In this document: positions 1,844 to 35,518 of the stretch, piece after piece | Numbering within the stretch: the stretch's first letter is position 1 | How the letters are laid out: every line of letters starts with the position of its first letter | Origin: Prochloraceae cyanobacterium | Lineage (GTDB): Bacteria; Cyanobacteriota; Cyanobacteriia; Cyanobacteriales; JASJDA01 | Assembly (NCBI GenBank): GCA_030065755.1 | Contig: JASJDA010000027.1 | Span: 1-36,007 of the forward strand | DNA length: 36,007 nt | Direction of reading: 5' to 3' | Translations under genes and position numbers: made by a program | Notes under the pieces: generated by a model | The model's database searches: none | Seen by the model: only the letters and a program-made list of their open reading frames with translations | Told to the model about the DNA's origin: nothing

Positions 1844-3490
1844 ATGTGGATTTTTAATCGCTCGCTGTTCCAATCTAAATCCCCTCATGCTGACGAGCAA
1901 AAACAGCCAACATCTGTCAAAGAAGAGGAGATAAAAGAATTAGCTGAAAAGCTTTGGAAAGCTGAAGGCTCCATAAAGATACTTAAAGATTCTTATTACC
2001 ATCGAGCGCGACAAAAATTAGAAACTGATTGGAGAGAACAAGCTAGAAGAACATTGTTTAATATAGGGAATCGAGCTAAAAGATCTCTTCAAAGTTTATA
2101 CAATTACAGCTCATTAAGAATCATTTGGGAGAAAATTTGTCCGCCAAAGGATGCAAGTGGTAAGCGAGGAGCTTCAACGTTTATTTTGTGGATTCTGGGA
2201 ATTCACTTTGCCACTTTTGGTATTGCCAGTGGTCGATATGAAAATCGGAAAGATACTTTGGAAACTGGTATAACTGTTGTTGCTACTCAGTTAGGTACTA
2301 ATAGGAAAGCAGCTAATCGTTTAGTTAATATTCAACAAACACCAATCCCTATACCTCCACAAATTCCTACATTTCAAGAGATCTTTAATATTAAAAATAT
2401 TGAAGATCTTGAATATTTTTGGTCAAAATCTACGTCGCCTTATTACTCCCTTTTTGGAGATCTAAAACTAAATCAAGAGATTATTATCGAGGTCAAAGAT
2501 CTGATAGTTAGTGAAAAAGAGAATCTAAAGGAAGTTAACTTAAGTAAAATCGACCTCAGTTTTGCCGACCTGAGAGAAGCCAAACTCAGTTTTGCCAACC
2601 TCAGTAGTGCCAACCTCAAATATGCCGACCTGAGAGAAGCCAAACTCAGTAGTGCCGACCTCAGTTTTGCCAACCTCATAGGTGCCAAACTCAGAAGTGC
2701 CAACCTCAGTTTTGCCGACCTGAGAGAAGCCAAACTCAGTTTTGCCAACCTCAGTAGTGCCAACCTCAAATATGCCGACCTGAGAGAAGCCAAACTCAGT
2801 TTTGCCAACCTCAAATATGCCGACCTCAGAAGTGCCAAGCTCATAGGTGCCAACCTCAGTAGTGCCGACCTGAGAGAAGCCAAACTCAGAGGTGCCAACC
2901 TCAGAAGTGCCAACCTCAGAAGTGCCAACCTCAGTTTTGCCGACCTGAGAGAAGCCGAACTCAGAGGTGCCAACCTCAGTAGTGCCGACCTCAGTAGTGC
3001 CAACCTCAAATATGCCGACCTCAGTAGTGCCAACCTCAAATATGCCGACCTCAGTAGTGCCAAACTCATAGGTGCTTACCTTGAAAAAGCTGATTTTACG
3101 AGTAAGGAGGAAACTGGAGTTGGTTTGACAATTGTTAGATCGTATTCGGGTCGATTCTTCGTCAGCATAGTTTATGAAAACACTTCAGCCTCTGAGAAAG
3201 GCATCAAGAAAAGGGATATGATCGTCAAAATTAACGGCAAAGAGACTAAGAAAATAAATATAGATGAAGCTAATAAGCTCCTTTTTGATAAAGAAGGCAC
3301 TGAAGTAACATTAACAATCCAACGAAACGATCAGCAAAAGGATTATGTTCTAGTTAGCGATCGCTTTACTATATCCGTCCAAGGTTTAACCCCAGAGCAA
3401 ATAAAGAAAGCTAAGAACTGGGAAAAAGCCAAATACGACCCAGAGTTCCGCCAACTACTTGAATCAACTGAAGAAACTGAATCGAATTGA
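1844..3490 (+). CDS. Membrane-anchored pentapeptide-repeat protein with C-terminal PDZ domain
   Basis: The 548-aa protein has four parts. Residues 1-100 are charged and helical, probably coiled coil. Residues about 111-130 (STFILWILGIHFATFGIASG) form one likely membrane segment. Residues about 230-418 are some 37 pentapeptide repeats of the A(D/N/K)Lxx type, which fold as a right-handed quadrilateral beta helix. Residues about 424-505 look like a PDZ domain (GVGLTIV at the carboxylate-binding loop position, then KRDMIVKINGKET and TVTLTIQRN-like strands). PDZ domains bind protein C-termini, so the likely role is a membrane scaffold or sensor; that is inference. Repeat units are nearly identical at DNA level, which suggests recent expansion. 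A terminator-like hairpin follows at 3654. The gene converges on another pentapeptide gene at 3972. Confidence 0.85.
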   Translation: MWIFNRSLFQSKSPHADEQKQPTSVKEEEIKELAEKLWKAEGSIKILKDSYYHRARQKLETDWREQARRTLFNIGNRAKRSLQSLYNYSSLRIIWEKICPPKDASGKRGASTFILWILGIHFATFGIASGRYENRKDTLETGITVVATQLGTNRKAANRLVNIQQTPIPIPPQIPTFQEIFNIKNIEDLEYFWSKSTSPYYSLFGDLKLNQEIIIEVKDLIVSEKENLKEVNLSKIDLSFADLREAKLSFANLSSANLKYADLREAKLSSADLSFANLIGAKLRSANLSFADLREAKLSFANLSSANLKYADLREAKLSFANLKYADLRSAKLIGANLSSADLREAKLRGANLRSANLRSANLSFADLREAELRGANLSSADLSSANLKYADLSSANLKYADLSSAKLIGAYLEKADFTSKEETGVGLTIVRSYSGRFFVSIVYENTSASEKGIKKRDMIVKINGKETKKINIDEANKLLFDKEGTEVTLTIQRNDQQKDYVLVSDRFTISVQGLTPEQIKKAKNWEKAKYDPEFRQLLESTEETESN

Positions 3491-3493
3491 AAT

Positions 3494-3528
3494 GCGATCT
3501 CGCGCCCGATCCGCGTAGCAGCGCGAGA
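3494..3528. repeat. GATCCGC palindromic repeat, copy 2
   Basis: TCTCGCGC...GCGCGAGA arms flank a CCGATCCGCGTAGCA centre. It begins four bases after the stop codon of the gene at 1844, so it lies in its 3' untranslated region. Confidence 0.75.
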
Positions 3529-3891: not shown

Positions 3892-3963
3892 GCTATCCGT
3901 GAGTTTTGTTGCTCGACTTTAATGAATGAACCGTTTAGTTTAATTGTGTGGTGTAGAAGGGCG
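3892..3963 (+). repeat. 72-bp direct repeat, right copy
   Basis: Second copy of the repeat at 1609-1680, with three differences by eye. It directly follows the GGCAAA array and ends 8 bp before the stop codon of the pentapeptide gene at 3972. Confidence 0.85.
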
Positions 3964-3971
3964 ATTGCTAT

Positions 3972-6032
3972 TTACTCAGCGTCTTGCCAGCCTTCTAAAA
4001 TAGCAACTCCTACATTTACGTAAGGGTTATCTAAGAACTCTTTCATTGCTTCCTTCCAACCTGCTTGTAAAGCACTCACGAATCTTGCCTTTAAAGTTGG
4101 GGAAAGTGCTGCATTTACAAAAGCTTCTTGCTGCTCCACAGTCGCAGTAGGATTGCTTTCTTCTAACTGTTTCAATAACTTTTGAATTTCTGCTGCTGCG
4201 TCAGCGAGGGTTTGTTTTTGTTCTGGGGAGTAGGTGATTGAATGGTCATTAAACGTGCCTCCAGTTTGTGTGCCACCTTCAGCCGCGAAACCTCCGCCAA
4301 ACTTAGAACCACGAAGATCGTATTTTGTATTTTCTTTTTCTGCCATAGTTTCAATAATTCCTATTAATCTAGTATTATCCTTACGTATAATTTCTACTTG
4401 TTGGTAATAAAAATCTTTTTGTTCGTCTAAAAGTTTTATTTTTTCATCTTTAGCTTCCAACTGTAACTCATATTTCTGCCGAAATTTTTGTTCGTACTCT
4501 CCTTCATCTACATCATTTGGTACTTTGACCCGAATAACAAAAGCGCCATCGCCTTTATTTTCTATTGTCTGTACAACAGGTAATTCTCCTGTATCGCTCT
4601 CTACCCGAAGCTCTTGGAACGTTTTAAGGAATATTTGCCAATCTATACCATCTTTAAAAATTAGATCTACTGTTTCTGTTATCTTTGTGAATAACTTGGT
4701 AAATTCTCCTGGCTGAAAGTTTTTTGTCGAATCTGCGGGTCTACGTTCTTGTTTGTTTTCTTTTAAATAAATGTAATCACAAATTACACCATTTAAATTA
4801 GTTTCACTGTTAATATTCCAATCTTCTATGCAAGCTCCAGTAAGTATGGCATTTTGAAAATTAGTTCCTAGTGCTTGAATTCTTGTCAGGTTAACTTCAG
4901 TTAAATTAGCCTCACTTAGATTTTGTGAGTTGAAGTTTCTCTCTTTTAAGTCATTTCCGCTTAGATTTACCCCTTTTAAATCGATTTTCCTCAAGTCGAT
5001 ATTACTTAGATCGATGTGTTTGAAGCTGCTTCCTCTTAACTTGGCACCACTCAGGTTGGCCTCTCTCAGGTGGGCACCACTCAGGTCGGCATTACTCAGG
5101 TCGGCATTACTCAGGTTGGCCTCTCTCAGGTGGGCACCACTCAGGTCGGCCTCTCTCAGGTTGGCCTCTCTCAGGTTGGCCTCTCTCAGGTTGGCCTCTC
5201 TCAGGTCGGCACCACTCAGGTTGGCCTCTCTCAGGTCGGCACCACTCAGGTCGGCATTACTCAGGTTGGCACCACTCAGGTTGGCCTCTCTCAGGTGGGC
5301 ACCACTCAGGTGGGCCTCTCTCAGGTTGGCACCACTCAGGTTGGCCTCTCTCAGGTGGGCACCACTCAGGTGGGCCTCTCTCAGGTTGGCCTCTCTCAGG
5401 TTGGCCTCTCTCAGGTAGGTACTACTCAGGTTGGCACCACTCAGGTCGTGACTTACTCCACCTTGGTTGACAATCTCCCATACTCTACGCCATTTCGCAT
5501 TTATTCTGGTTTTTTCATTAATTTGAGTGTTTTTTAAATTAGCGCTACTGAGGTCGGCATTTCTCAGGTCGGCATTTCTCAGGTCGGCATTTCTCAGGTC
5601 GGCATTTCTCAGGTCGGCATTTCTCAGGTCGGCTTCTGTGAGGTTAGCACCACTCAGGTCGGCCTCTCTCAGGTCGGCATAACTCAGGTCGGCATTTCTC
5701 AGGTGGGCACCACTCAGGTCGGCATTTCTCAGGTGGGCACCAATCAGGTCGGCTTCTGTGAGGTGGGCACCACTCAGGTCGGCCTCTCTCAGGTCGGCAC
5801 CAATCAGGTCGGCACCACTCAGGTGGGCATAACTCAGGTCGGCTTCTGTGAGGTGGGCACCAATCAGGTCGGCATAACTCAGGTAGGTACTACTCAGGTC
5901 GGCACTACTGAGGTCGACTTCTGTGAGGTCGGCACCACTCAGCTTAGGCTTAATAGCAGGATTCTCTTTACGCCACTGATTCCACTCCTTTACACTTCGC
6001 CTTAGAATTTTTAAATGCTGAAGGTTAGCCAT
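3972..6032 (-). CDS. Pentapeptide-repeat protein with C-terminal coiled-coil and conserved tail
   Basis: A 686-aa protein. After a short basic N-terminus (residues 1-30) come two blocks of pentapeptide repeats, roughly 31-170 and 205-395, split by a non-repeat linker containing KWRRVWEIVNQGG. Then follow a helical region, a VIRVKVPND-like strand segment, a coiled coil (about 500-570), a Gly-rich stretch (KYDLRGSKFGGGFAAEGG) and a C-terminal helical domain starting near SPEQKQTLADAAAEIQKLL. That tail is shared by many cyanobacterial pentapeptide proteins, and its function is not known to me. No signal peptide or membrane segment is seen, so it is probably cytosolic. The start is supported by CGAGG upstream of the ATG. 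Repeat units are almost identical at DNA level. A long open frame on the opposite strand is only a by-product of the 15-bp period. Confidence 0.85.
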   Translation of the reverse strand: MANLQHLKILRRSVKEWNQWRKENPAIKPKLSGADLTEVDLSSADLSSTYLSYADLIGAHLTEADLSYAHLSGADLIGADLREADLSGAHLTEADLIGAHLRNADLSGAHLRNADLSYADLREADLSGANLTEADLRNADLRNADLRNADLRNADLRNADLSSANLKNTQINEKTRINAKWRRVWEIVNQGGVSHDLSGANLSSTYLREANLREANLREAHLSGAHLREANLSGANLREAHLSGAHLREANLSGANLSNADLSGADLREANLSGADLREANLREANLREANLREADLSGAHLREANLSNADLSNADLSGAHLREANLSGAKLRGSSFKHIDLSNIDLRKIDLKGVNLSGNDLKERNFNSQNLSEANLTEVNLTRIQALGTNFQNAILTGACIEDWNINSETNLNGVICDYIYLKENKQERRPADSTKNFQPGEFTKLFTKITETVDLIFKDGIDWQIFLKTFQELRVESDTGELPVVQTIENKGDGAFVIRVKVPNDVDEGEYEQKFRQKYELQLEAKDEKIKLLDEQKDFYYQQVEIIRKDNTRLIGIIETMAEKENTKYDLRGSKFGGGFAAEGGTQTGGTFNDHSITYSPEQKQTLADAAAEIQKLLKQLEESNPTATVEQQEAFVNAALSPTLKARFVSALQAGWKEAMKEFLDNPYVNVGVAILEGWQDAE

Positions 6033-6304: not shown

Positions 6305-6760
6305 TTAAACGGTTTTAATTGACAAGTTTAAATAACCCGTTCCCACTTCTAGATCGGGGTTGGCGGTTAATTCGTCTCTAATGTTTCTAACAGTCCAATC
6401 TAGATTAATCCAGTTTTCAATCCCGCCATTCAACCAACTATTATTAAGATTTATTTCCTCTCTAACGCCATTAATACTTACTTTTATTTTGTCCAGTTTG
6501 CGCAAACTTAAAATAGTAGGATAAGTATAGATGTTGTTGCCATCAACTACGCCATTAGTAAGGAGATTGGTGGTAGTCCCGTCTCGTTCTAAGGAGATGG
6601 TAAAGTTAATAGGAAACTCGATCGCATTGGAGATAACTAGATCGGAAACTATTAATTGTTCTAAATCTGCACCTTGATACTGTTCTAGAGCCTGATAAAC
6701 TTCTAAGTCTGGCTTTACCTGTAATGTAAATAATTCTGTAGCAATTGGAAGTCTTGGCAT
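6305..6760 (-). CDS. Hypothetical protein, 151 aa
   Basis: Start chosen at the ATG at 6760 (MPRLPIATELF); the longer frame to 6835 adds an AT-rich, unlikely N-terminus. The protein is rich in beta-strand-like segments with regular Asn/Asp turns (LVISNAIEFPINFTISLERD, VSINGVREEINLNN), which suggests a beta-sandwich. It has no signal peptide or membrane segment. A short beta-rich remnant on the same strand at 8725-8889 has a similar style but I could not align the two. Function unknown. It diverges from the CoiA-like gene at 6921. Confidence 0.6.
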   Translation of the reverse strand: MPRLPIATELFTLQVKPDLEVYQALEQYQGADLEQLIVSDLVISNAIEFPINFTISLERDGTTTNLLTNGVVDGNNIYTYPTILSLRKLDKIKVSINGVREEINLNNSWLNGGIENWINLDWTVRNIRDELTANPDLEVGTGYLNLSIKTV

Positions 6761-6920: not shown

Positions 6921-7952
6921 ATGTGGTTAGAATACGCTCTAGGCAAAGATGAGAGTCTAGTTTCGATTGATGATGTCAAGCGAGGCAGAAACAATTATTA
7001 CTGCCCATATTGCCAAGGAGAATTAGTTGCTAAAAAAGGCAAAATCAAAGCCCATCATTTTGCTCATATTGGAGAAACCTGTAATCCTGTCAAAAATAAA
7101 ACTGTTAATCTGCCGCTATTTTGGGGCTTTGATTTGATATTATCGCGAGATAAGCTAAACTATTTAAAACAGCTTGAATCAAATTCTTTTGAACCTAAAA
7201 TATATTACAAGTATAGCTTAAAAGGAATACCAGACAAAAGATGTAGCTTTCTCAAAGAAAAAGGTATAATCGATAATATTTCCTCAAATAAATATGAACT
7301 AACAAATTTGGGAAAAGTCATCCTTAAAAAACTTTCTTTATTGCAGTTTAGTGAAGTACAAGAACTTTTATGCCAAAAAAAACTTGAGGAATTAAAAAGC
7401 TGGATTTTAGGAATAGCTAACTTGCTCGAACACGACATTAAGTATAAAAAAACAAAAAACTATCTAAATAGCTCTATTGAATCTAAAGAATATCTTGATT
7501 CAAGCATCAAAAGAAAAGAAAAACTTTTACAAGAAACTATTGTAGACCTTAAAATTTACTGCGCTCAATATAGAAAAGTTTTGATTTCAAACTTATATTT
7601 TTTACGCATAACAACTCATAATGAAACATTTTATAAAATTGGTGTTACAAGCAGAGACATTGAAGAAAGAATTAAAAAGATAAGTTCCGATCTATCAAAA
7701 CTATTCAATGATTTGTCAGTTGTTTTGTTGGGTATATGGCAGCACAGAAGTAATGTCGAGCATTATTTTAAATATCGTTATGAAAATTTCAAGTATCCTC
7801 TGGGGAGCCTAACGGAATATTTTAAATTCTCAGACCCCGCGCCTGTTCTACAAGATTTAAACACTCTAAAACCAAAACAACTTTCTCAATTAGAAAAAGA
7901 GATTATAGACGGAAAAACAGCAGATAATTTTGTTATACCTTCACAATTTTAA
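6921..7952 (+). CDS. CoiA-like zinc domain plus GIY-YIG-like nuclease domain (paralogue 1)
   Basis: A 343-aa protein with two recognisable ends. Residues 1-60 carry a metal-binding pattern, C28-P-Y-C31, H45-H46-F-A-H49 and C54, matching the N-terminal part of CoiA-like proteins. Residues about 225-310 look like a T5orf172/GIY-YIG-type nuclease domain: LYFLRI, then FYKIGVTSR, an ER pair, and NVEHYFKYRY ending in LTEYFKF. The middle is helical and Lys-rich. CoiA acts on incoming DNA in competence in other bacteria; here a nuclease role on DNA is the reasonable inference. The gene is clearly homologous over its whole length to the gene at 27589. Translation is AT-rich compared with that paralogue, so the two copies have diverged in base composition. 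Confidence 0.75.
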   Translation: MWLEYALGKDESLVSIDDVKRGRNNYYCPYCQGELVAKKGKIKAHHFAHIGETCNPVKNKTVNLPLFWGFDLILSRDKLNYLKQLESNSFEPKIYYKYSLKGIPDKRCSFLKEKGIIDNISSNKYELTNLGKVILKKLSLLQFSEVQELLCQKKLEELKSWILGIANLLEHDIKYKKTKNYLNSSIESKEYLDSSIKRKEKLLQETIVDLKIYCAQYRKVLISNLYFLRITTHNETFYKIGVTSRDIEERIKKISSDLSKLFNDLSVVLLGIWQHRSNVEHYFKYRYENFKYPLGSLTEYFKFSDPAPVLQDLNTLKPKQLSQLEKEIIDGKTADNFVIPSQF

Positions 7953-9139: not shown

Positions 9140-10123
9140 ATGTCGATCGAGCCGCCAAAACCACTGTCAGATGAGCCACCAGACCCAGACGACCTACTCA
9201 AAAACGATATTAACCGAAGCATTTACAGATATCTCAAGAAGAATCCAGGCTGGCACGACGAAATAACTATATCCAACCGCGTCGGCACTCCTTTGCTAAC
9301 TCTGAGAAAATACCTCGCCCAATTAGAAGGGCATTTAATCGAGAAACAGGGAGATTCCTTGTGGAGATTGGAGACCTCGATCGAACAACAATTATATAAG
9401 CCTAAGCAGCTATCGCTCTCCGTCGAGTCCTCTACCTCAACTCAATTACTGGGGGATGAAAAATTCCTAGGGTATAAGAGTGAAGACGAGCAAGTTATGG
9501 AAAACCCTAGGAAAAAAAGTCACCCCAGTATAAAAAACCCTAGGAAAACGCGACGGAAAAAAGGGCTTGGAAACGGCTCGATCTATTACCGTACCTCGGT
9601 TAAGAATGGAAAAGAGTATACGGACGCTTATTACCACTACACTGAGAACGGTAAAAAGCGGACTAAATATATCCCCAAGTCACTGCTAGATAAAGTTAAA
9701 GAGGCAGAATCTCTCAAGCTTCCCGTAGCCGACATTTTAGTTTTACTGGGGGGAAATAATAAAAACCCTAGGAAAAAATCTGACATTCCCAATGAAGCGA
9801 TCGCTGAAACTAATAATAATGAGATCGACTCAGAGCTTAATTACCCTAGGAAAAAAAGTCCCCCCAGTACAAAAAAGCGCCAACAAGGATACGGCGGGGG
9901 ATACGTCGAGTACAAACCTATAAAACGTAGTGGCAAAACCTACCCTCAATATTGGTATCACTACGAATTTTGGGAGAATGGCGATCCCGCAGGGATCCGC
10001 GTAGCGGCACGCCTAATCAAATCTTCCAAATACATTCCTAAAAGACTTCTAGCTAAAGTACAAAAGCTAGATGCTCAAAAAGCCCCTGTGGTACAGATTC
10101 TAGAGTTATTAGGAATTAAATAG
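9140..10123 (+). CDS. Winged-helix-like protein with a duplicated C-terminal domain
   Basis: Start chosen at the ATG at 9140 (MSIEPPKP), giving 327 aa. Residues about 20-80 look like a winged helix-turn-helix (IYRYLKKNPGWHDEITIS, then LTLRKYLAQLE). Two copies of a roughly 70-residue domain follow: copy 1 runs from GNGSIYYRTSVKNGKEY to VADILVLLGG, copy 2 from GGGYVEYKPIKRSGKTY to VVQILELLG. Both share Y(H)YE/TEN-G, then KYIPK(S/R)LL and a closing helix. The domain is common in cyanobacterial proteins but I know of no function. A GATCCGC palindrome is inserted in frame in copy 2 and adds PAGIRVAA relative to copy 1. Each domain is preceded by a basic NPRKKS-type linker, itself a DNA repeat. A DNA-binding role is inferred from the winged helix and basic linkers. 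Confidence 0.75.
   Translation: MSIEPPKPLSDEPPDPDDLLKNDINRSIYRYLKKNPGWHDEITISNRVGTPLLTLRKYLAQLEGHLIEKQGDSLWRLETSIEQQLYKPKQLSLSVESSTSTQLLGDEKFLGYKSEDEQVMENPRKKSHPSIKNPRKTRRKKGLGNGSIYYRTSVKNGKEYTDAYYHYTENGKKRTKYIPKSLLDKVKEAESLKLPVADILVLLGGNNKNPRKKSDIPNEAIAETNNNEIDSELNYPRKKSPPSTKKRQQGYGGGYVEYKPIKRSGKTYPQYWYHYEFWENGDPAGIRVAARLIKSSKYIPKRLLAKVQKLDAQKAPVVQILELLGIK
9504..9876 (+). repeat. Paired 34-bp linker repeats with CCTAGG
   Basis: 9504-9537 and 9843-9876 match with two differences. They begin ACCCTAGGAAAAAAAGTC, include CCCCAGTA, and encode the (N/Y)PRKKS linkers before each duplicated domain. Shorter CCCTAGGAAAA copies occur at about 9538 and 9766. The repeat reflects the internal duplication of the gene. 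Confidence 0.75.
9981..10012 (+). repeat. GATCCGC palindromic repeat, copy 3 (in frame)
   Basis: Sequence starts GCGATCCCGCAGGGATCC and continues CGCGTAGCGGCACGC. It is translated inside the gene at 9140 as DPAGIRVAAR, residues 282-291. The first copy of the same protein domain lacks it, so it was inserted without breaking the frame. Confidence 0.8.
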
Positions 10124-11088: not shown

Positions 11089-11973
11089 ATGACGGATGCC
11101 GCTCAAAAAGTAACTGTTCGAGTAAAAGACTTTTCTGTCGAAGCTTATCAACTAACTATTGACGATCGAGATCTAATATTATTCACTCACCGTCAAATAG
11201 GGGAGATTATCGGTAAAACCAAAGCTACAGCTCAAAAATTCCTCAAACAACACGCTCCTGATTTGCCAGAACCCATAAAAGCCAAGATTCCAGATCGCAG
11301 AGGTCAAATACCTCTAACACCACCCACAGGAGCAATAGCTTACTGGCAGAAACAAGCTGAACTCGGTAATAGAGAAGCGATCGCTCTCATTGCTGCCTTA
11401 GATAATAAGTCAATAGAAGAATTTGAGGTTGTAAAAGCTTCTGAAACCTCCGATACGCCAGCTCAAGAAACTCCCAAGGCTAAGAGTGAATTAAAGCTCA
11501 TTGCCTCTGGAATTGAAATCGCTTCTAATTGGATGAAGGAAGCGGGAATAGACCCAATGGCAGTAGCCCACTGGCAGCTAAACGAGCTACAGAAGAAAGT
11601 TCCCGAACTTCATGACGTAATAACCTCAGCTCAAGCCGTAATTGCTCAGAATAGCGATTCTCCTACTGGCAAGATTGCCTCTCAACTAGCAGCCGACGTC
11701 TCGAAACAGGTTGGTGAAAAAGTTACTGCTGCTCAAATCAATAAAGCTTTACACGAACTGGGCTTTCAGGATTGGGCAAATCCTGGGAAAAATAGAGAAC
11801 GGAAATTAACTGAAATAGGAAAGCAGTATGGGGTAGCACTACTAACTACATCTGCTGATGGTTGGCAAGGGGCGCAGTTACGCTGGTTTGATTCTGTTAT
11901 TCCTTTGTTGTGCCAATATTTTTTCCGAAGCGCGCCGCGAAGCGGATCTCAAAGCGCTCGAACGAGCGCATGA
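11089..11973 (+). CDS. Plasmid/phage antirepressor-like protein, C-terminus altered
   Basis: A 294-aa protein. The N-terminal 60-70 residues contain a helix-turn-helix-like segment (THRQIGEIIGKTKATAQKFL). The middle is helical. The C-terminal part (VTAAQINKALHELGFQ, then RERKLTEIGKQYG and SVIPLLCQYF) resembles the terminal domain of phage antirepressor-type and plasmid proteins. A GATCCGC palindrome at 11929-11969 sits at the end of the gene and supplies the last residues (FRSAPRSGSQSARTSA). In the +1 frame just downstream, the codons LTTKELLELLDEKKN-stop (stop at 12025-12027) look like the original tail, and that stop overlaps the ATG of the next gene. The insertion has therefore replaced about 15 C-terminal residues. 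A role in plasmid gene control is inference. Confidence 0.7.
   Translation: MTDAAQKVTVRVKDFSVEAYQLTIDDRDLILFTHRQIGEIIGKTKATAQKFLKQHAPDLPEPIKAKIPDRRGQIPLTPPTGAIAYWQKQAELGNREAIALIAALDNKSIEEFEVVKASETSDTPAQETPKAKSELKLIASGIEIASNWMKEAGIDPMAVAHWQLNELQKKVPELHDVITSAQAVIAQNSDSPTGKIASQLAADVSKQVGEKVTAAQINKALHELGFQDWANPGKNRERKLTEIGKQYGVALLTTSADGWQGAQLRWFDSVIPLLCQYFFRSAPRSGSQSARTSA
11929..11969. repeat. GATCCGC palindromic repeat, copy 4 (frame-breaking)
   Basis: GAAGCGCGCCGCGAAGCGGATC followed by AAAGCGCTCG and AACGAGCGC. Two nested inverted repeats are visible. It overlaps the 3' end of the gene at 11089 and shifts its frame. Confidence 0.7.
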
Positions 11974-15553: not shown

Positions 15554-16504
15554 ATGCCCTTGATCTCATCGGAGGAAATAGCAGCTCTTTCACTTCAATT
15601 GCCAGTTCCTCTGACCCAACATCCAGCGGCTGTTTATCTCGGCTCTTTGAGTGAGGGTAGCAAGCGGACTATGGGCAGTTCTTTGAATGCGATCGCCCAT
15701 TTACTCACGGATGGTCAATGCGATGCAATGACTCTAGATTGGTCGAAACTGCGCTACCGTCACACTGCTGCTATTCGCACTGCTCTAGCTCAGCGATTGG
15801 AACCCGCTACGGTTAATAAAATGTTAGTGGCTTTGAGGAGGGTTCTTAAAGAGGCTTATCGGCTCGATTTAATGGACGCTAATGATTGTGCTAAAGCAAC
15901 GGATTTAAAGAGTTTGAGAACGTCGGGAGCGCTAAGAGGTCGCGCTTTGAGTAGGGAAGAAATCAATCGTTTAGTTGAAAGTTGTATTTCTCTTAGTGCG
16001 ATCGACCTTCGGGACGGGGCGGTAATTGCCATTCTAAGAGGTGGGGGGATAAGAAGAGACGAATTAGTAAAATTAACCACAGACGACCTCGACTTGTGTG
16101 ATGGAGAATTGATTGTACGTCGGGGGAAAGGAGGCAAACAGCGCACCGTTTATCTCAATGAAGAGGCACTAACTTTTGTTAAAAACTGGTTGAAGATTAG
16201 AGGGGACGCTCCTGGAGCTTTGATTTGTCCCGTTACTAAAGGCAATAGGGTTATCGTGCGACATTTTGCCTCTGATGGGGACGGGATTTATAAGTTGTTG
16301 AAAAGACGAGCAGAAAAGGCGGGGGTGGTCGATTTTTCTCCCCACGACTTTCGACGCACGTTTTGCTCGGAACTGTTAGATGACGAAGATTTATTTACCG
16401 TGCAGGATTTGGCTGGTCACGTCTCTTCTGTAACTACTAAAAAGTACGATCGTCGAGGAGAAGCGAGGAAGCGAAAAGCAGTGAAGAAGTTAAAGTTGAG
16501 GTAG
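15554..16504 (+). CDS. Tyrosine recombinase (XerC/XerD-like integrase)
   Basis: A 316-aa site-specific recombinase of the lambda-integrase family. The N-terminal 110 residues form the SAM-like core-binding domain. The catalytic domain has all expected residues: R167 (GGIRRDEL), the beta-hairpin lysine in RGKGGKQRTVYL, H264 and R267 (HDFRR), H289 (LAGHVS) and the nucleophile Y298 (KKYDRRG). These enzymes cut and rejoin DNA at short inverted sites through a 3'-phosphotyrosine bond. Placed beside parA-parB, resolution of plasmid multimers is the likeliest job, with integration as the alternative. The ATG at 15554 gives the normal family length. A GATCCGC palindrome begins directly after its stop. 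Confidence 0.92.
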   Translation: MPLISSEEIAALSLQLPVPLTQHPAAVYLGSLSEGSKRTMGSSLNAIAHLLTDGQCDAMTLDWSKLRYRHTAAIRTALAQRLEPATVNKMLVALRRVLKEAYRLDLMDANDCAKATDLKSLRTSGALRGRALSREEINRLVESCISLSAIDLRDGAVIAILRGGGIRRDELVKLTTDDLDLCDGELIVRRGKGGKQRTVYLNEEALTFVKNWLKIRGDAPGALICPVTKGNRVIVRHFASDGDGIYKLLKRRAEKAGVVDFSPHDFRRTFCSELLDDEDLFTVQDLAGHVSSVTTKKYDRRGEARKRKAVKKLKLR

Positions 16505-16505
16505 T

Positions 16506-16538
16506 GGCGCACAGCGAAGCGGATCGTGCGCGAGATCG
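16506..16538. repeat. GATCCGC palindromic repeat, copy 5
   Basis: GGCGCACAGCGAAGCGGATC followed by GTGCGCGAGATCG. It overlaps the region right after the recombinase stop and is an imperfect palindrome (GCGCAC/GTGCGC arms). Confidence 0.7.
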
Positions 16539-17889: not shown

Positions 17890-18261
17890 TTAAACAGAAT
17901 CGTCTATCCAGCCACAACGAGGGCAATCCCAGTGAACCAGAGGAGGATTGTTTCGCGCCGCGAAGCGGATCTCTTCGAGATCGAATTTATAGCTGCATTG
18001 AGGACAAACACCCGTAAAGAAGGGATGATTATCTAATATTTCTAATTGTTCTTCTTTTGTGTATCGAGAAGGTTTATTGGGAATAAGTTGTCCGTCGTAG
18101 AACGAATAACCTTCTGGTGTCCATAATTCCTCTTCGGCTGCATTAGGATCTGGTCTGAAGTCCAAACAGCGATCGGTACTAACGCCATTAGGATGTACTG
18201 CGCAGATTAGATGTGGGTTGTGGGCGTAGAGGAGGCATCGATCGCACTCAGGAATCTTCAT
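17890..18261 (-). CDS. Zinc-ribbon protein with an in-frame palindrome insertion
   Basis: A 123-aa Cys-rich protein. The N-terminal half has CDRCLLYAHNPHLICAVHPNG, with C at 6 and 9 and another Cys pair later; the C-terminal half has CPQC and CPRC, a typical zinc-ribbon pair. The family is common in cyanobacteria but its role is not known to me. Between the two ribbon knuckles the protein reads DLEEIRFAARNN, encoded by a GATCCGC palindrome at 17953-17983; similar peptides appear in two other proteins in this window, so this is an insertion. It lengthens the loop between knuckles and may be tolerated. It is three bases from, and probably co-transcribed with, the phosphatase gene upstream. Confidence 0.75.
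   Translation of the reverse strand: MKIPECDRCLLYAHNPHLICAVHPNGVSTDRCLDFRPDPNAAEEELWTPEGYSFYDGQLIPNKPSRYTKEEQLEILDNHPFFTGVCPQCSYKFDLEEIRFAARNNPPLVHWDCPRCGWIDDSV
17953..17983 (-). repeat. GATCCGC palindromic repeat, copy 6 (in frame)
   Basis: On the minus strand CGATCTCGAAGAGATCCGC followed by TTCGCGGCGCGAAA. It is read as DLEEIRFAAR within the zinc-ribbon protein at 17890. Confidence 0.8.
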
Positions 18262-18649: not shown

Positions 18650-19640
18650 TTACTCGCTCGGATAATTTACGATCGTTGGCTCGATCCATATCTCTTTGGT
18701 TTGGGGATTTGCTCTCGTACCTATTGGTTGGGAGCGCCAATGTCCTCTTCTATAACCGACTTTTATTTTATAATTTCTTTGCTTTCCAGAAGCATTAATT
18801 CTATTCGACCTTTTAACAGAATAATGTTTTCCTATCCACAAAGGTCTTCTTTTCGCATTAGAAGTATTATTACCAAAGCCTTTAACTTGAGAAAAACTCT
18901 GAGTTTCTATTTCCTTAAAATCTTTGAAATGATAAGAGTACAATAAGACTTGATAGCACAAAGAAGTTATCGTATCTGTAAACAAAGTTTCAGAGTCATG
19001 CTCGAAACTACCGTCAAACAAATAAACACTATCATCAACAGAAAACTCGCCTATATTATTAAGATCTGATGGTTCAAAAGTTCGAGCATAAACTGAACCA
19101 TCATCTAGCACGGCGACCCAGTTTACCTTATCAATATCTTGCGTACCTGCCATGTCTAAATTGATTGTAGTTGCTCCATTCCTAATCGTTAAATCTTCTC
19201 TGATTTCTCCAGCATAAAGATAGTCGAAATAGAGCCACTTCAAATCTTGTCCGTCTGGAGACTCAATTAGACCTGTTGGTATCATTATTATTCCCCTAGG
19301 AACGAACGGTCTAAATTTAAATTCTGACCCTTGGTAGCTGGGTCATTAAAAGAGATTCGGCAAGGCTTTTTTCTAACCAATAAATGGGGACAATTTCCGA
19401 AAATATATAACCAGCAGCAATAGAAGCACAACTTTGGGCGAAATCTTCAGTTTTTCCTTTGACTAAGATTTCTATACCGTAAAGCTGAACTGCCATCCAT
19501 TTGCCAACATTTTTAACGTCCGCATATCCTTTGACGCGGGGATAATTTAACTTATTAGTTATTTTTTTATAGTAATTGGTCTTCTTAATTTCGGTAAAAA
19601 AAGCTCTTTCTTTCAGATCGCGCCCTGCGGGATCCGCGTA
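18650..19640 (-). pseudogene. Frameshifted paralogue of the gene at 33320
   Basis: The C-terminal half is open from 19285 to 18650 and ends GYRRGHWRS then IWIEPTIVNYPSE, matching RRGHWARR and WIEPTLVNYVE of the intact gene at 33320. The N-terminal half is found upstream in another frame (about 19335-19620): IKKTNYYKKITNKLNYPRVK, AQSCASIAAG, VPIYWLEKSLAESLLMTQLP, parallel to IKKTKAYKAIGKNINYRSVK and CYWLASELSESL. The frames meet near 19340, where a single-base shift gives KFRPFVPRGI, parallel to LKPFVNRGI. A GATCCGC palindrome at 19616-19650 lies at the N-terminal end and an in-frame stop just beyond it removes the start. The gene is therefore broken twice. Upstream, 19651-19807 shows no gene. 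Confidence 0.8.
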
Positions 19641-19650
19641 GCGGATCGCT
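19616..19650. repeat. GATCCGC palindromic repeat, copy 7
   Basis: GATCGCGCCCTGCGGGATCC followed by GCGTAGCGGATCGCT. It sits at the N-terminal end of the broken gene 18650-19640 and appears to have removed its original start. Confidence 0.75.
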
Positions 19651-20560: not shown

Positions 20561-21064
20561 TCGTGGCGAGCGATGGAATCCTACACTATTTATCAATTCG
20601 ATCTCGATCGAGTTCGGTGGAATGAAGAACTAGATGGAATCCTCCCTAAAGGTTGGACAGAAACAGAATTGGGAAGAGCTTTATTCAAACAAGCCAGTAC
20701 TAGTGAAAGCAAATTCACTGCTAATAGAAGTGACTGGAGCGAGAAAGTAGTTTGGGAATTGACTAAACTATTAAAACTACCTGCTGCTAGATACGAATTG
20801 GCTGCGGTGATAGATGGGGACAAAGAAATTCCAGGATCTATCTCCATAGATTGCTCGCTCGTCGGAGATGAAAAACGCTATCCAATAGAAGAGCTGCTCG
20901 TCAGTACCATGCCTAAATACGATTTTCCTGAAGATTACACCATTGGCAATACAATTAAAGCCTTAGCAAAGATCGATGTTCGATTGCCGCCTAATTACGA
21001 AAGACCTCTTTCATAAATATTTTGTGATATACTTAAAGATTGTTTCGTTCAAGTAGAAGGGCGG

Positions 21065-21344
21065 GCGATCGAGGGCTGGAGTTAGCGATCGAGGGCTGAA
21101 ACTGGCGATCGAGGGCTGGAGCTAGCGATCGAGGGCTGAAACTGGCGATCGAGGGCTGAAACTGGCGATCGAGGGCTGAAACTGGCGATCGAGGGCTGAA
21201 ACTGGCGATCGAAGACTGGAACTGACGATCGAGGGCTGGAGTTAGCGATCGAGGGCTGAAACTGGCGATCGAAGACTGGAACTGGCGATCGAAGGCTGGA
21301 GCTGGCGATCGAGAGCTGGAACTGGCGATCGAGAGCTGGAACTG
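21065..21344 (+). repeat. Fourteen tandem 20-bp HIP1-containing repeats
   Basis: Fourteen head-to-tail units of the form GCGATCGAGGGCTGAAACTG fill exactly 280 bp. Variants differ at a few positions (GAAGACTGG, GAGAGCTGG, GGAGTTA, GGAGCTA). Each unit carries GCGATCGA, one base from the HIP1 octamer. They lie inside the insertion sequence between its end and the transposase stop. Since 20 is not a multiple of 3, coding is unlikely. Confidence 0.92.
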
Positions 21345-21372
21345 GCGATCTCGGAGCACCGTGCGGCGCGCC
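21345..21372. repeat. GATCCGC-type palindromic repeat, copy 8 (degenerate)
   Basis: GCGATCTCGGAGCACCGTGC followed by GGCGCGCC. It directly abuts the last 20-bp tandem unit and shares GCGATCTC with the other copies but lacks the central GATCCGC. Confidence 0.5.
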
Positions 21373-21709
21373 AGGGAAGAAAAATTGACATCAAAAATTG
21401 ATTCAGTCATTGATTAATTCCTGAATTTTATCGATATATTTAATTTTTTGTTTCAATTTATCTGGCTAATTCGTAATTATAAATACCCGCAATTAAATTA
21501 CTTCTCAAGCCAAATCTGCGATGACGATTTCTATATGTATCGGATAAGATTTTAAAGATTTTTAAACAACGATTAACGTGCTCAACAACAATTCTTAAGC
21601 GATTTAATTCACGGTTATATTTTTTTTGTTCTTTCGTTAATTTAGCCCCTCGTGGTTTTTTAATAGGAGTTTCACTTAAATGATGAATTTTAGCTATTCC
21701 TTGATAGCC

Positions 21710-27472: not shown

Positions 27473-27588
27473 GTCTCTGAAAGCAGAATAATATCTGACG
27501 CTTTTGGTATCGAATGCTACTTTCTGCAAGATTATTTCGGCACAATACAGATATACTGTGGTTTGGTCAGTATATTAGTTCTAATATG

Positions 27589-28518
27589 ATGTGGTTAAAA
27601 TACGGTGTTGCCAGAAATGGAAGTCTTTTAACGATCGAGGAAGTATCTTCAGGAAAAACCGATCTCCTCTGTCCGTTCTGCCTCAGTCCCCTAATAGCCA
27701 AGAAAGGGAAAATTAAGCAGCATCACTTTGCTCATTTAGGAGGACAAACCTGTTTGAGAGTTAAAAGGGGTCAAATTCCTTCCCTGCCACTTTACGATAA
27801 TTTCCACCTTCAACTCAATGCCCAGCATTTTCAACTGGTAAAACAGCTTTGGCGAGAATATGCTGACAGTCCTCACGCGATCGTCTACGTACCTTTTGCT
27901 TTGCAGCTCAAAAAGTTGTTTGAGAGAGTGGAGGGCGGTTATCGGTTTACAGATCTCGGAAAAATTCCAGTTGGCGGACTGTCTTTGTCTAGTTTTAACC
28001 AGGTACAAGAACCGATGATAGTCGATCGACTGACTGAATTAACTAATTCTGTTGCCGTTGCTTCTGGCATTAACTCTGTCAGGTTACAAGAGAAATTAGG
28101 AGACCTAAAAATATATCAACTTCAGATACAACGCATTCTCCAACTATCTCTATACTTTTTGGAAATTAAAGCAGACGGTCAAACATTTCACAAGATTGGC
28201 GTAACTAGAAGAACGATGGGCGAGCGTATACCAGAAATAGAACGAGATTTAAAACAACATTATCGAGCGATTTCGATCTTCGTGCTGGGAACGTGGAAAC
28301 ATAGAGGAAATGTGGAGCTATATTTCAAACATCGCTACAAAGACTTTAATTATAAAATTGGTAAATTAACTGAATATTTTAAGTTTAAAGACATCGAGCG
28401 AGTCAAATACGATCTAGAACAAATGCAGCCGAAGATATTAAGCGATCTCGCAGAGATCCGCTTCGCGGCGCGAGAATTAACTATTTACCAAAGTTCGGCA
28501 ACGCCTGTTTTAAATTGA
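27589..28518 (+). CDS. CoiA-like zinc domain plus GIY-YIG-like nuclease domain (paralogue 2)
   Basis: A full-length paralogue of the gene at 6921, about 20 kb away. Start taken at the second of two adjacent ATGs (27589; the other is 27586) because the protein then begins MWLKYGVARNG, parallel to MWLEYALGKDE. Metal-site residues are C28, C31, H45, H46, H49 and C55. The C-terminal nuclease-like domain has LYFLEI, TFHKIGVTRR, a GER turn and NVELYFKHRY ending LTEYFKF. The middle TDLGK-to-VQEPMIVDRL part also aligns. A GATCCGC palindrome is read in frame near the C-terminus as SDLAEIRFAARE (from residue 285). It is followed about 75 bp later by the RecD2-like helicase gene, so a DNA-processing function for both is plausible. 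Confidence 0.78.
   Translation: MWLKYGVARNGSLLTIEEVSSGKTDLLCPFCLSPLIAKKGKIKQHHFAHLGGQTCLRVKRGQIPSLPLYDNFHLQLNAQHFQLVKQLWREYADSPHAIVYVPFALQLKKLFERVEGGYRFTDLGKIPVGGLSLSSFNQVQEPMIVDRLTELTNSVAVASGINSVRLQEKLGDLKIYQLQIQRILQLSLYFLEIKADGQTFHKIGVTRRTMGERIPEIERDLKQHYRAISIFVLGTWKHRGNVELYFKHRYKDFNYKIGKLTEYFKFKDIERVKYDLEQMQPKILSDLAEIRFAARELTIYQSSATPVLN
28442..28474 (+). repeat. GATCCGC palindromic repeat, copy 9 (in frame)
   Basis: GCGATCTCGCAGAGATCCGC followed by TTCGCGGCGCGAG. It is the best-formed copy. Read by eye, it has no stop codon in any of the six frames. Its frame here gives DLAEIRFAAR within the CoiA-like gene at 27589. Confidence 0.85.
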
Positions 28519-28594
28519 GAATAGATTTATTGTTTAAGTATAATTGTACTCATATTATAAATTAATATTAATTTTCAAGTCTTTTGTTTTTCTT

Positions 28595-30802
28595 ATGTCC
28601 AAAACCTTAGAAGTAATGGGACTAACTGGAGTAGTAGAGCGATTAACATATCACTCGACTGAATCTGGGTATACAGTTGCCCGCCTAAAAGTACCTAAAT
28701 TCTCCGACCTAGTAACGGTAGTAGGTAGTTTTGCCAATATCCAGCCAGGACAAACGCTTAGAATCAAAGGTTATTGGAAAGAACATCCTCAATACGGGCA
28801 GCAGTTTAACGCACTCGAATATACCGAAACCTTACCCGCAACAATCACTGGAATCCAGAAATATCTCGGTAGCGGATTAATAAAAGGTGTTGGACCAGTT
28901 TATGCAAAAAGGATAGTCGAGCATTTTGGGTTAGAGACTTTAGAAATAATTGAAAATGAAACGACGCGCCTAATCGAAGTTCCAGGTATTGGTAAAAAGC
29001 GGGTCGAGACAATATCAAAAGCTTGGGTAGAACAACTTGCTATCAAAGAAGTGATGGTCTTTCTAACCAGCCATAATGTTTCTACTACTTACGCAGTCAA
29101 GATCTATAAAAAGTATGGAGACAAATCGATCGCCACTGTCACCAACAACCCTTACCAGCTATCCGAAGATATATTCGGGATTGGCTTTCTCACTGCCGAC
29201 AAAATCGCTACAAACATCGGCATATCTCCGTGGTCTAAATTTCGCTATCGTGCTGGCATACTCCACGTACTAAAAGAAGCAGCAGAAAACGGACATTGCT
29301 TTTTACCCCAGCCAGAATTAATTACTGGTGCTTTAGATAAATTAACCACCACGGAACATACCGCTGAAGCGAATGGTATTACTGCTGTAATCGAAGACTT
29401 AAAATCCACAGAAGACTTAATTGTGGAATTGGCAGGAGATATGCCCCTATGTTATCAACCAACCTACTACCATACAGAAAACAATTTATCTAAATTAGTA
29501 CTAAAGTATCTAAATAATCCAATTACAGTAGATATCGAGCGCGTCCGTAACTGGATCTCTAGATTTACTGCTAGCCGTAAAATTTCCTTATCTCCACAAC
29601 AACAAACCGCAGTAGAAATGGCGGCGAAATCGAGAATAATGATACTGACTGGCGGTCCAGGTGTAGGAAAGACTTTTACGACTAAAACGATCGTCGCTCT
29701 ATGGAAAGCAATGGGGAAGTCGATCGCCGCTGCAGCACCCACAGGAAGAGCAGCACAAAGGTTGTCCGAACTAACTGGAATAGAAGCACTTACCTTACAT
29801 CGGTTGCTGGAATTCGATCCGAAAACTATGAGCTTCAAAAGGGATAAGCACGATCCTTTACCTCAAAATGCGATCGTTATTGACGAAACCTCAATGCTGG
29901 ATTTATTTCTAGCTCATTCTCTATTGAAAGCTATATCCAAAGAAGCTCAAATCCTTATGGTTGGAGATGTGGATCAACTCCCCTCTGTGGGTCCAGGTCA
30001 AGTATTAAAAGACTTGATAGATTCAGGTGTTATTCCACTAGTACGGTTAACTCAGGTTTTCCGTCAAGCATCAAATAGCGCGATCGTTACCGTGGCTCAC
30101 CAAATTAATTCCGGTACATTTCCTAATATCGAAGTTATTTCCGATAACCCGAGTAGCAATTGTTTGCTCCATAGTGGCGGGACATTACCAGAACATGGTG
30201 TTCAATTAATTGGGGAATTGGTTAGAAGTTTTATCCCCAAACAGGGTTTTAATCCCACTACAGATTTAATGGTGTTGTCTCCCATGACCAGAGGTGTAGT
30301 AGGAACGAGAAACTTAAATAAAGTCTTGCAAGAGTTAATTAATCCTCCCCATGTGAACAAAGCTCAAGTTACTAGGGGCGATCTAATTTTTCGAGTAGGC
30401 GATCGTATTATCCAGCTCAAGAACGATTACCAGAGGGAAGTTTTCAACGGCGACTTGGGAATAATTGATACGATCAATACTGAAGAACAAGAAGTTATTG
30501 TTGACTTTGAGCGTCGAAAAGTTAAATACGATTATGCAGATTTAAATGAAATTAACTTAGCGTTCAGTACGAGCATACATAAGTCGCAAGGCTCAGAATA
30601 TCCTGTGGTGATTCTCCCTCTGTATATGAGCCATTACATGATGTTATCGAGGAACTTGTTTTATACCGGTTTAACCAGAGCTAAAAAGTTAGGCATTATT
30701 ATTGGGAGTAATAAAGCGATCGCTATTGCCACTAAAAATTATCAACAGCAGGAACGCTATACTCGCTTAGCATTGAGATTAATCGAAAAAGATACTTTTT
30801 AG
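28595..30802 (+). CDS. recD2: RecD2-like ATP-dependent DNA helicase
   Basis: A superfamily 1 5'-to-3' DNA helicase of the RecD2 (RecD-like/TraA-related) type. I chose the ATG at 28595 (MSKTLEVMGLTGVVERLTY), giving 735 aa; a TTG at 28544 only adds a hydrophobic extension. N-terminal OB-like part (GYTVARLKVP, VVGSFANIQPGQTLRIKGYW) and helix-hairpin-helix region (EVPGIGKKRVETI) come first. Then Walker A GGPGVGKT (353-360), Walker B DETSMLD (from 430), GDVDQLPSVGPGQVL, RLTQVFRQ, and the late motifs STSIHKSQGSEYPVV and YTGLTRAKK. All motifs look intact. RecD2 unwinds DNA in repair and recombination outside RecBCD. It follows the CoiA-like gene closely. Confidence 0.93.
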   Translation: MSKTLEVMGLTGVVERLTYHSTESGYTVARLKVPKFSDLVTVVGSFANIQPGQTLRIKGYWKEHPQYGQQFNALEYTETLPATITGIQKYLGSGLIKGVGPVYAKRIVEHFGLETLEIIENETTRLIEVPGIGKKRVETISKAWVEQLAIKEVMVFLTSHNVSTTYAVKIYKKYGDKSIATVTNNPYQLSEDIFGIGFLTADKIATNIGISPWSKFRYRAGILHVLKEAAENGHCFLPQPELITGALDKLTTTEHTAEANGITAVIEDLKSTEDLIVELAGDMPLCYQPTYYHTENNLSKLVLKYLNNPITVDIERVRNWISRFTASRKISLSPQQQTAVEMAAKSRIMILTGGPGVGKTFTTKTIVALWKAMGKSIAAAAPTGRAAQRLSELTGIEALTLHRLLEFDPKTMSFKRDKHDPLPQNAIVIDETSMLDLFLAHSLLKAISKEAQILMVGDVDQLPSVGPGQVLKDLIDSGVIPLVRLTQVFRQASNSAIVTVAHQINSGTFPNIEVISDNPSSNCLLHSGGTLPEHGVQLIGELVRSFIPKQGFNPTTDLMVLSPMTRGVVGTRNLNKVLQELINPPHVNKAQVTRGDLIFRVGDRIIQLKNDYQREVFNGDLGIIDTINTEEQEVIVDFERRKVKYDYADLNEINLAFSTSIHKSQGSEYPVVILPLYMSHYMMLSRNLFYTGLTRAKKLGIIIGSNKAIAIATKNYQQQERYTRLALRLIEKDTF

Positions 30803-35035: not shown

Positions 35036-35518
35036 ATGTTACAACAATATCTTCAAAAACACGCTGACTTCATGAAAATAATCCACCCTCAACCCGACTG
35101 GAAATATGAAAGTTTTGAGGAATTAGTTTTGGATTGTGGTCTTGAGGTAGAGGCGATCGAACTTCCGTCAAATATAGAGCAAGGTATAGCCAAAAGCTGT
35201 TACTGGAACTGCCAGCAAATAATTAAAAAGCAACCCGATCTAATCTACTGTGAAGGATACGCGCTTATTAATGAAGCACCCATTCCTTTGCGTCACGCTT
35301 GGTTGCTAAACTCAGAGCGAAAAGCGCTCGATCCGACCTGGGTTCCTCCTGGAATCAAATATATAGGGGTTCCGTTCGTTACTGAATGGGTAGAGTCTTT
35401 TTTGGAGAACCGATCTCATAAGGATAATGGCGAACACATAAGCATATTTGAAGGCAACTTTGTGGAAGATTCCAGTCTTTTGAAAAAAGGGTTGCCCAAT
35501 GGTGCGTGCTTTAAATAA
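35036..35518 (+). CDS. Possible papain/transglutaminase-fold protein, 160 aa
   Basis: The sequence shows a Cys-His-Asp order that fits a papain-like fold: C55 in KSCYWNCQQ, H87 in LRHAWLL, D99 in ALDPTW, with YCEGYALI between them. HAW followed by DPTW is the pattern of transglutaminase-like and related phage/plasmid proteins. If active it would hydrolyse or transfer amide bonds; substrate unknown. The start overlaps closely with the stop of the 58-aa gene upstream (one-base gap). No signal peptide is present. Family placement rests on these motifs only. Confidence 0.6.
   Translation: MLQQYLQKHADFMKIIHPQPDWKYESFEELVLDCGLEVEAIELPSNIEQGIAKSCYWNCQQIIKKQPDLIYCEGYALINEAPIPLRHAWLLNSERKALDPTWVPPGIKYIGVPFVTEWVESFLENRSHKDNGEHISIFEGNFVEDSSLLKKGLPNGACFK

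Follow-up and report, generated by a model that had tools for sequence, protein, structure and literature searches.

A paired-hairpin repeat of 24 to 27 nucleotides inserted within HIP1 sites of a Prochloraceae cyanobacterium, and the peptides it adds to proteins

A pair of hairpins, 24 nt and sometimes 27 nt in length, has been inserted into HIP1 (GCGATCGC), between its fifth and sixth letters, at many CGATCG sites of the genome that holds the window, the 36,007-nt stretch of DNA analysed here. HIP1 is an eight-letter palindrome that is highly over-represented in cyanobacteria; insertion point 5|6 on one strand is 3|4 on the other. We assign the repeat, with a probability of about 0.85, to the SDR5-like, HIP1-targeted mini-insertion elements. 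The copies avoid genes, and where one resides in a gene the added peptide is set by the host gene's reading frame through HIP1.

The genome comprises 8.46 Mb in 455 contigs. The core of the element, GATCCGCTTCGCGGCGC, matches it 251 times at three or fewer mismatches compared with 5 times for the reversed pattern, and the pattern with a GTA loop matches 162 times at no more than one mismatch compared with none for the control. A 1.36-Mb sample of the genome was used, consisting of the window and 100 stretches, nearly all of which were picked for holding a copy. The element is formed by two abutting hairpins with loops mostly of 3 nt: hairpin A, GATCTC-NNN-GAGATC, and hairpin B, CCGC-NNN-GCGG. 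A majority consensus built from 70 distinct 24-nt copies reads GCGATCTCGNAGAGATCCGCGTAGCGGCGCG, and in its HIP1 setting the element is written GCGAT[CTCGAAGAGATCCGCGTAGCGGCG]CGC. The grammar CGAT, hairpin A, hairpin B and NNCG is followed at 129 sites of the 1.36-Mb sample and at one in the reversed sequence. Other hairpin B modules occupy 5 of these 129 sites, including the intergenic copy at 19619–19648 (−) of the window, which follows the full grammar with swapped modules, a long hairpin A (GATCCGC-TAC-GCGGATC) and the hairpin B CCC-GCA-GGG. The copies at L127:609 and L083:13405(−) have CTGAGC-TTC-GCTCAG as their second hairpin, or the same hairpin with its loop inverted. From these two sites the hairpin modules seem interchangeable.

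For the length analysis 131 of 140 hairpin pairs were kept (stem of at least 5, hairpin A of 15–18 nt). The insert is 24–27 nt long in all 131 and exactly 24 or 27 nt in 125, in a set that admits only a hairpin A of 15–18 nt; the grammar scan also yields one 28-nt and one 30-nt insert. Lengths divisible by three make up 125 of the 131. Among the 88 intergenic copies they number 84, so this feature belongs to the element itself and does not stem from selection within genes. The two arms of stem A covary. In the fairer count, which uses 125 copies selected on hairpin B, both variable pairs are kept in 96% of the copies compared with 45% when the arms are shuffled; pair 5 is T-A in 70 copies and C-G in 52, with a single T-G between the two states. 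The formal covariation count used the 70 distinct 24-nt copies, in which stem A pairing is 100% by construction because the finder demanded at least 5 perfect pairs. Stem B shows no variation. Three copies with a 44-nt spacing occur within a tandem repeat at L117:7385–7501.

A search with 166 elements in three genomes yielded 23 distinct pairs of filled and unfilled sites. The filled partner is longer by 24 nt in 18 pairs, by 27 nt in 4 and by 20 nt in 1. CGATCG resides exactly at the junction in 12 of the 23 empty sites, for example TCAGCGAT|CGCTTTCT, which in both L032 and L056 is interrupted by 24 nt. The 11 empty partners that lack CGATCG at the junction are diverged paralogues or repeats, among them the partner (L058) of the window copy at 28442. 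The setting is thus GCGAT, insert, CGC, with CGATCG as the core target, and no clear target duplication is seen at empty paralogous sites. When 140 hairpin pairs were collected with no requirement on their flanks, a C preceded GATC in 136 and CG followed the two-base tail in 135. Of 125 copies, 89 have the 5' G of HIP1, compared with 46% of CGATCG sites. On L036, two places with flanks matching at 80% over 341 nt, near 6696 and 11013, carry the element at the same HIP1 site but in opposite orientations.

Three ORFs of the window read a copy in the same register, as the earlier note had stated, giving DPAGIRVAAR (9981), DLEEIRFAAR (17953) and DLAEIRFAAR (28442). The copy at 28442–28473 (+) in ORF 27514–28518 comprises GCGAT at 28442–28446, the 24-nt insert at 28447–28470 and then CG; its target half is GCGAT|CGA, and it adds 8 amino acids near the C-terminus of the protein. 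A paralogue of this protein (L058, same place as L015) is exactly 8 amino acids short at the copy site. The protein matches CoiA_N, and window ORFs 6921–7952 and 27514–28518 are two paralogues with 37% identity. The copy at 9981–10011 (+) in ORF 9140–10123, with its insert at 9986–10009 and the loop GTA, is read as GDPAGIRVAAR; the protein's own first, inner repeat is free of the peptide, and a homologue (L037) has the same insertion. The copy at 17953–17984 (−), with its insert at 17956–17979, is located between two CxxC pairs (FDLEEIRFAARN) in ORF 17890–18261. In agreement with the insertion proposed in the earlier note, the peptide occurs in 0 of 11 informative alignments of this protein with orthologues from 10 genomes, a count that omits L203, which did not align clearly at its 26% identity, and fragments ending short of the site. 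The orthologue is exactly 8 amino acids shorter in 8 of the 11 alignments, and the missing 8 residues are those between the two CxxC pairs.

The 28442 copy had also been described as free of stop codons in all six frames. Recomputation gave zero stops for its 33-mer, and the 17953 copy is likewise open in six frames; the 9981 copy is not, its GTA loop creating TAG in one frame. Taken on its own, six-frame openness is weak evidence, being shared by 25% of shuffles of the 28442 33-mer and by 2.8% of all 33-mers in the window. In general, the GTA loop leaves five frames open and the TTC loop all six. Since almost every insert is divisible by three in length and leaves at least five of the six frames open, insertion into a gene usually adds 8–9 residues without breakage. 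At its lowest energy the 28442 copy folds into a three-way junction that has an outer GCG/CGC stem, and the folding energies of the three window copies are ordinary for their composition (z of −0.17, −1.30 and 0.54).

Rickettsia palindromic elements are ~100–150 bp in length and have a favoured coding frame. The parallel drawn with them by the earlier note survives in part: the window copies are in-frame palindromic repeats, and their peptides are missing from orthologues or a paralogue, whereas the length and the frame preference do not carry over. A selfish repeat of this type, selected for a preferred coding frame with proteins as its niche, would agree with in-frame insertions that orthologues lack and with nearly all frames being open. 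However, no frame is preferred beyond those of HIP1. CGATCG within genes is in phase 2 at 1166, phase 1 at 896 and phase 0 at 196 of 2258 sites. The 39 in-gene copies span all six classes of register and orientation (2, 12, 11, 2, 2 and 10), and the 30 with a GTA loop are distributed over the five open classes as 2, 7, 2, 10 and 9, which fits the CGATCG phase frequency times open frames (p = 0.79; equal use, p = 0.047). The frame class closed by the GTA loop holds 0 of 30 GTA copies compared with 9 of 25 non-GTA copies (genomes G000, G292 and G312 pooled). The enrichment for one coding frame expected by the earlier note was thus absent once the frames of CGATCG were taken into account, and the common frame of the three window copies results from HIP1's favoured frames plus chance. 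Genes are moreover avoided, with 39 copies in genes and 88 between them compared with 2258 and 798 CGATCG sites (odds ratio 0.157, p = 4e-23; genes called with a simple purpose-made gene finder), and the multiple-of-three length extends to the intergenic copies. Coding selection of the Rickettsia type is mostly refuted by these frame and location counts and is very improbable; a length of just 24–27 nt, the confinement to HIP1 and the mostly intergenic location set the element apart from the Rickettsia-type palindromes.

In the wider genome sample, the copy falls within a Pfam domain in L095 (precorrin methylase), L121 (flavin monooxygenase) and L070 (gluconolactonase-like propeller). In L104 the copy precedes the domain, and in L040 the copy is positioned between kinase and FGE-sulfatase domains; the copy-bearing proteins L032, L118, L080, L093 and L085 gave no family match. 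When L070 is aligned with the solved relative 7plb, the peptide is surrounded by gaps of 3 and 6 residues, and the alignment with 4gn7 passes through the peptide with little gap. The stretch shown in the structure alignments of L095 and L121 did not cover the peptide.

Six further copies between or at the ends of genes of the window had been listed earlier. We count five, with a weak match at 35330 as a possible sixth, and one of the five is inside a gene. Apart from the copy at 19619–19648, they are degenerate or partial. The in-gene copy (11948(−); 11931–11962, minus strand), near the 3' end of ORF 11089–11973, combines an intact hairpin B with a degenerate hairpin A; its gene reads it as SAPRSGSQSAR, in a frame and orientation unlike those of the three copies above. 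A variant copy (3508) at 3494–3528 (+) is directly downstream of ORF 1844–3490 (GCGATCTCGCGCCCGATCCGCGTAGCAGCGCGAGA), a degenerate one (16525(−)) at 16508–16538 (−) is directly downstream of ORF 15554–16504, and a partial copy at 1439–1455 consists of the hairpin GATCCGC-CGT-GCGGATC adjoining a GCGATCGC. The window also contains repeats of other types. Long pentapeptide-like repeats, named by reading (A(D/N)LXX, 15-nt period), extend over 2473–3069 and 3972–6032, and the pentapeptide-like genes 1844–3490 (+) and 3972–6032 (−) produce the window's largest inverted repeats. A near-identical 75-nt pair (95%) at 1609–1683 and 3892–3966 flanks the first of these genes. Approximately 14 copies of a 20-nt tandem repeat occupy 21004–21410, and a 125-residue minus-strand ORF crosses them though the period is not a multiple of three.

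This genome has 105 occurrences of the 18-base motif GATCCGCNNNGCGGCGCG; of the other 291 genomes sampled from the phylum, 6 contain it, each once or twice. With NGCG, the motif is present in 12 of 60 relatives, this genome included: the one congener has 37 copies, two genomes from a different family have 67 and 23, and eight others have 1–8. Most copies in the carrier relatives share the GCGAT..CGC setting. The favoured loops vary by lineage, with GTA in this genome, TTC and TAC in the congener, and TTC, GGA and TCC in G312. A search of a contig database with the exact 29-mer returned a single record, the Prochloraceae MAG contig L131, of which 3 kb match this genome (G000) with 69–83% identity in the longer pieces. 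Among 20 same-site pairs in which both partners are filled and differ, the loop is exactly inverted in 4 (GGA/TCC, TAC/GTA, AA/TT and TCT/AGA). Since a differing loop drawn from the pool would be the inverse with a chance of 12% (A) to 29% (B), loop inversion in place is a lead and not proof; it is only suggestive, and fits strand switching within the hairpins. Such switching might conceivably copy one arm onto the other while inverting loops, which would keep the stems perfect.

An immobile origin, in which strand-switch mutagenesis at HIP1 palindromes creates the repeats in place and similar copies are convergent, would account for hairpin A extending the GATC of HIP1, for the near-perfect stems and for the loop inversions. 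We regard it as extremely improbable, because hairpin B and the tail are not copied from the flanks and yet are nearly identical at ~250 places, and because the favoured loops are lineage-specific. A binding site, terminator, mRNA stabiliser or other functional site selected between genes would agree with the mostly intergenic copies and the covarying stems, but the element is present or absent between paralogues, occurs in both orientations and is placed by HIP1, and Rfam gave no match for 28300–28620, the region of the 28442 copy; such a site is very unlikely.

The remaining alternative concerns the mover and is compatible with an SDR5-like element. A REP/REPIN-type palindrome moved by a Y1 transposase (RAYT or IS200/IS605-like) would combine hairpins with a fixed target and no target duplication, Y1 transposases likewise using fixed short targets without duplication, and the genome encodes 16 Y1 genes (PF01797). 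However, a canonical copy is found within ~1.5 kb on either side of 0 of the 16 Y1 loci, and no mobilising enzyme was identified by this search; one locus (L138) has a near-match of the element at its edge. The sequence GTAG spans the common loop, and in the consensus this overlap is its only occurrence, with no unpaired GTAG/CGTC tag at the hairpin foot; other loops (TTC, TAC) are also common. Movement by a Y1 transposase is thus unlikely, and was set aside as no Y1 gene adjoins the canonical copies. REP/REPIN palindromes with GTAG tags are described as short, high-copy and hairpin-forming repeats that occur in cyanobacteria as well (PMC3733652, PMC3116915). The present element shares these traits and differs in having a fixed octamer target, no terminal unpaired foot tag and no adjoining Y1 gene. 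For the SDR5-like element we propose a mode of spread that, taken as a whole, we hold at somewhat less than even odds. A DNA or RNA hairpin would enter a HIP1 site that carries a cut or nick at CG^ATCG, where the GATC-complementary arm of the hairpin would match the target, and selection would purge most insertions in genes while harmless ones stay.

The element seems to be akin to a known class of very small mobile repeats in cyanobacteria and not to the Rickettsia elements. Elhai et al. reportedly described SDR5 in 2008 as a class of 21–27 nt, with paired stems that show compensatory changes, and are said to have claimed a limited host range for it. The 24–27 nt of the present element fall within that reported class, and its stem A is similarly backed by compensatory changes. 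SDR5 is a small dispersed repeat of Nostoc inserted precisely within HIP1 at position 3|4, equal to 5|6 on the other strand, which is the fixed position seen here (PMC4390886). The present element differs in its lengths of 24 or 27 nt, its carriers in several families and the peptides it adds to proteins, and the likeness to SDR5 drawn here is one of insertion site, size class and compensated stems. A further repeat, GCGAT(GTCTACGACGGGCTACGCCTA)CGC, which we take to be a Nostoc-type HIP1-embedded repeat, numbers 73–156 copies in three genomes that belong to a single other genus and has 0 matches in G000, G292 and G312. Like the present element, it resides in GCGAT..CGC, forms two small hairpins whose loops are 3 nt long and has an insert length that is a multiple of three (21 nt), whereas its stems differ from those of the present element.

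Searches of a literature collection that lacks most subscription journals yielded no account of a HIP1-embedded repeat that adds peptides to proteins. Apparently new are the peptide insertions proven against orthologues, the swaps of hairpin modules, the possible loop inversions and the carriers in several families. Exact pairs of filled and empty sites are now available for the element, and puzzling in-frame peptides are tied to a class of the smallest mobile DNA that is known but has been little followed up. A coding outcome arises here without coding selection: it is enough that an insert of a multiple of three nucleotides enters a target that has a reading frame of its own. The question of what cuts HIP1 becomes testable. 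In a broader and more doubtful reading, HIP1 may be a landing pad for codon-length hairpin cassettes (21, 24 or 27 nt) with interchangeable modules and loops that invert in place, which write peptides into proteins. If that is true, a single CGATCG cutting activity would link HIP1, its methylation and the mobility of the cassettes.
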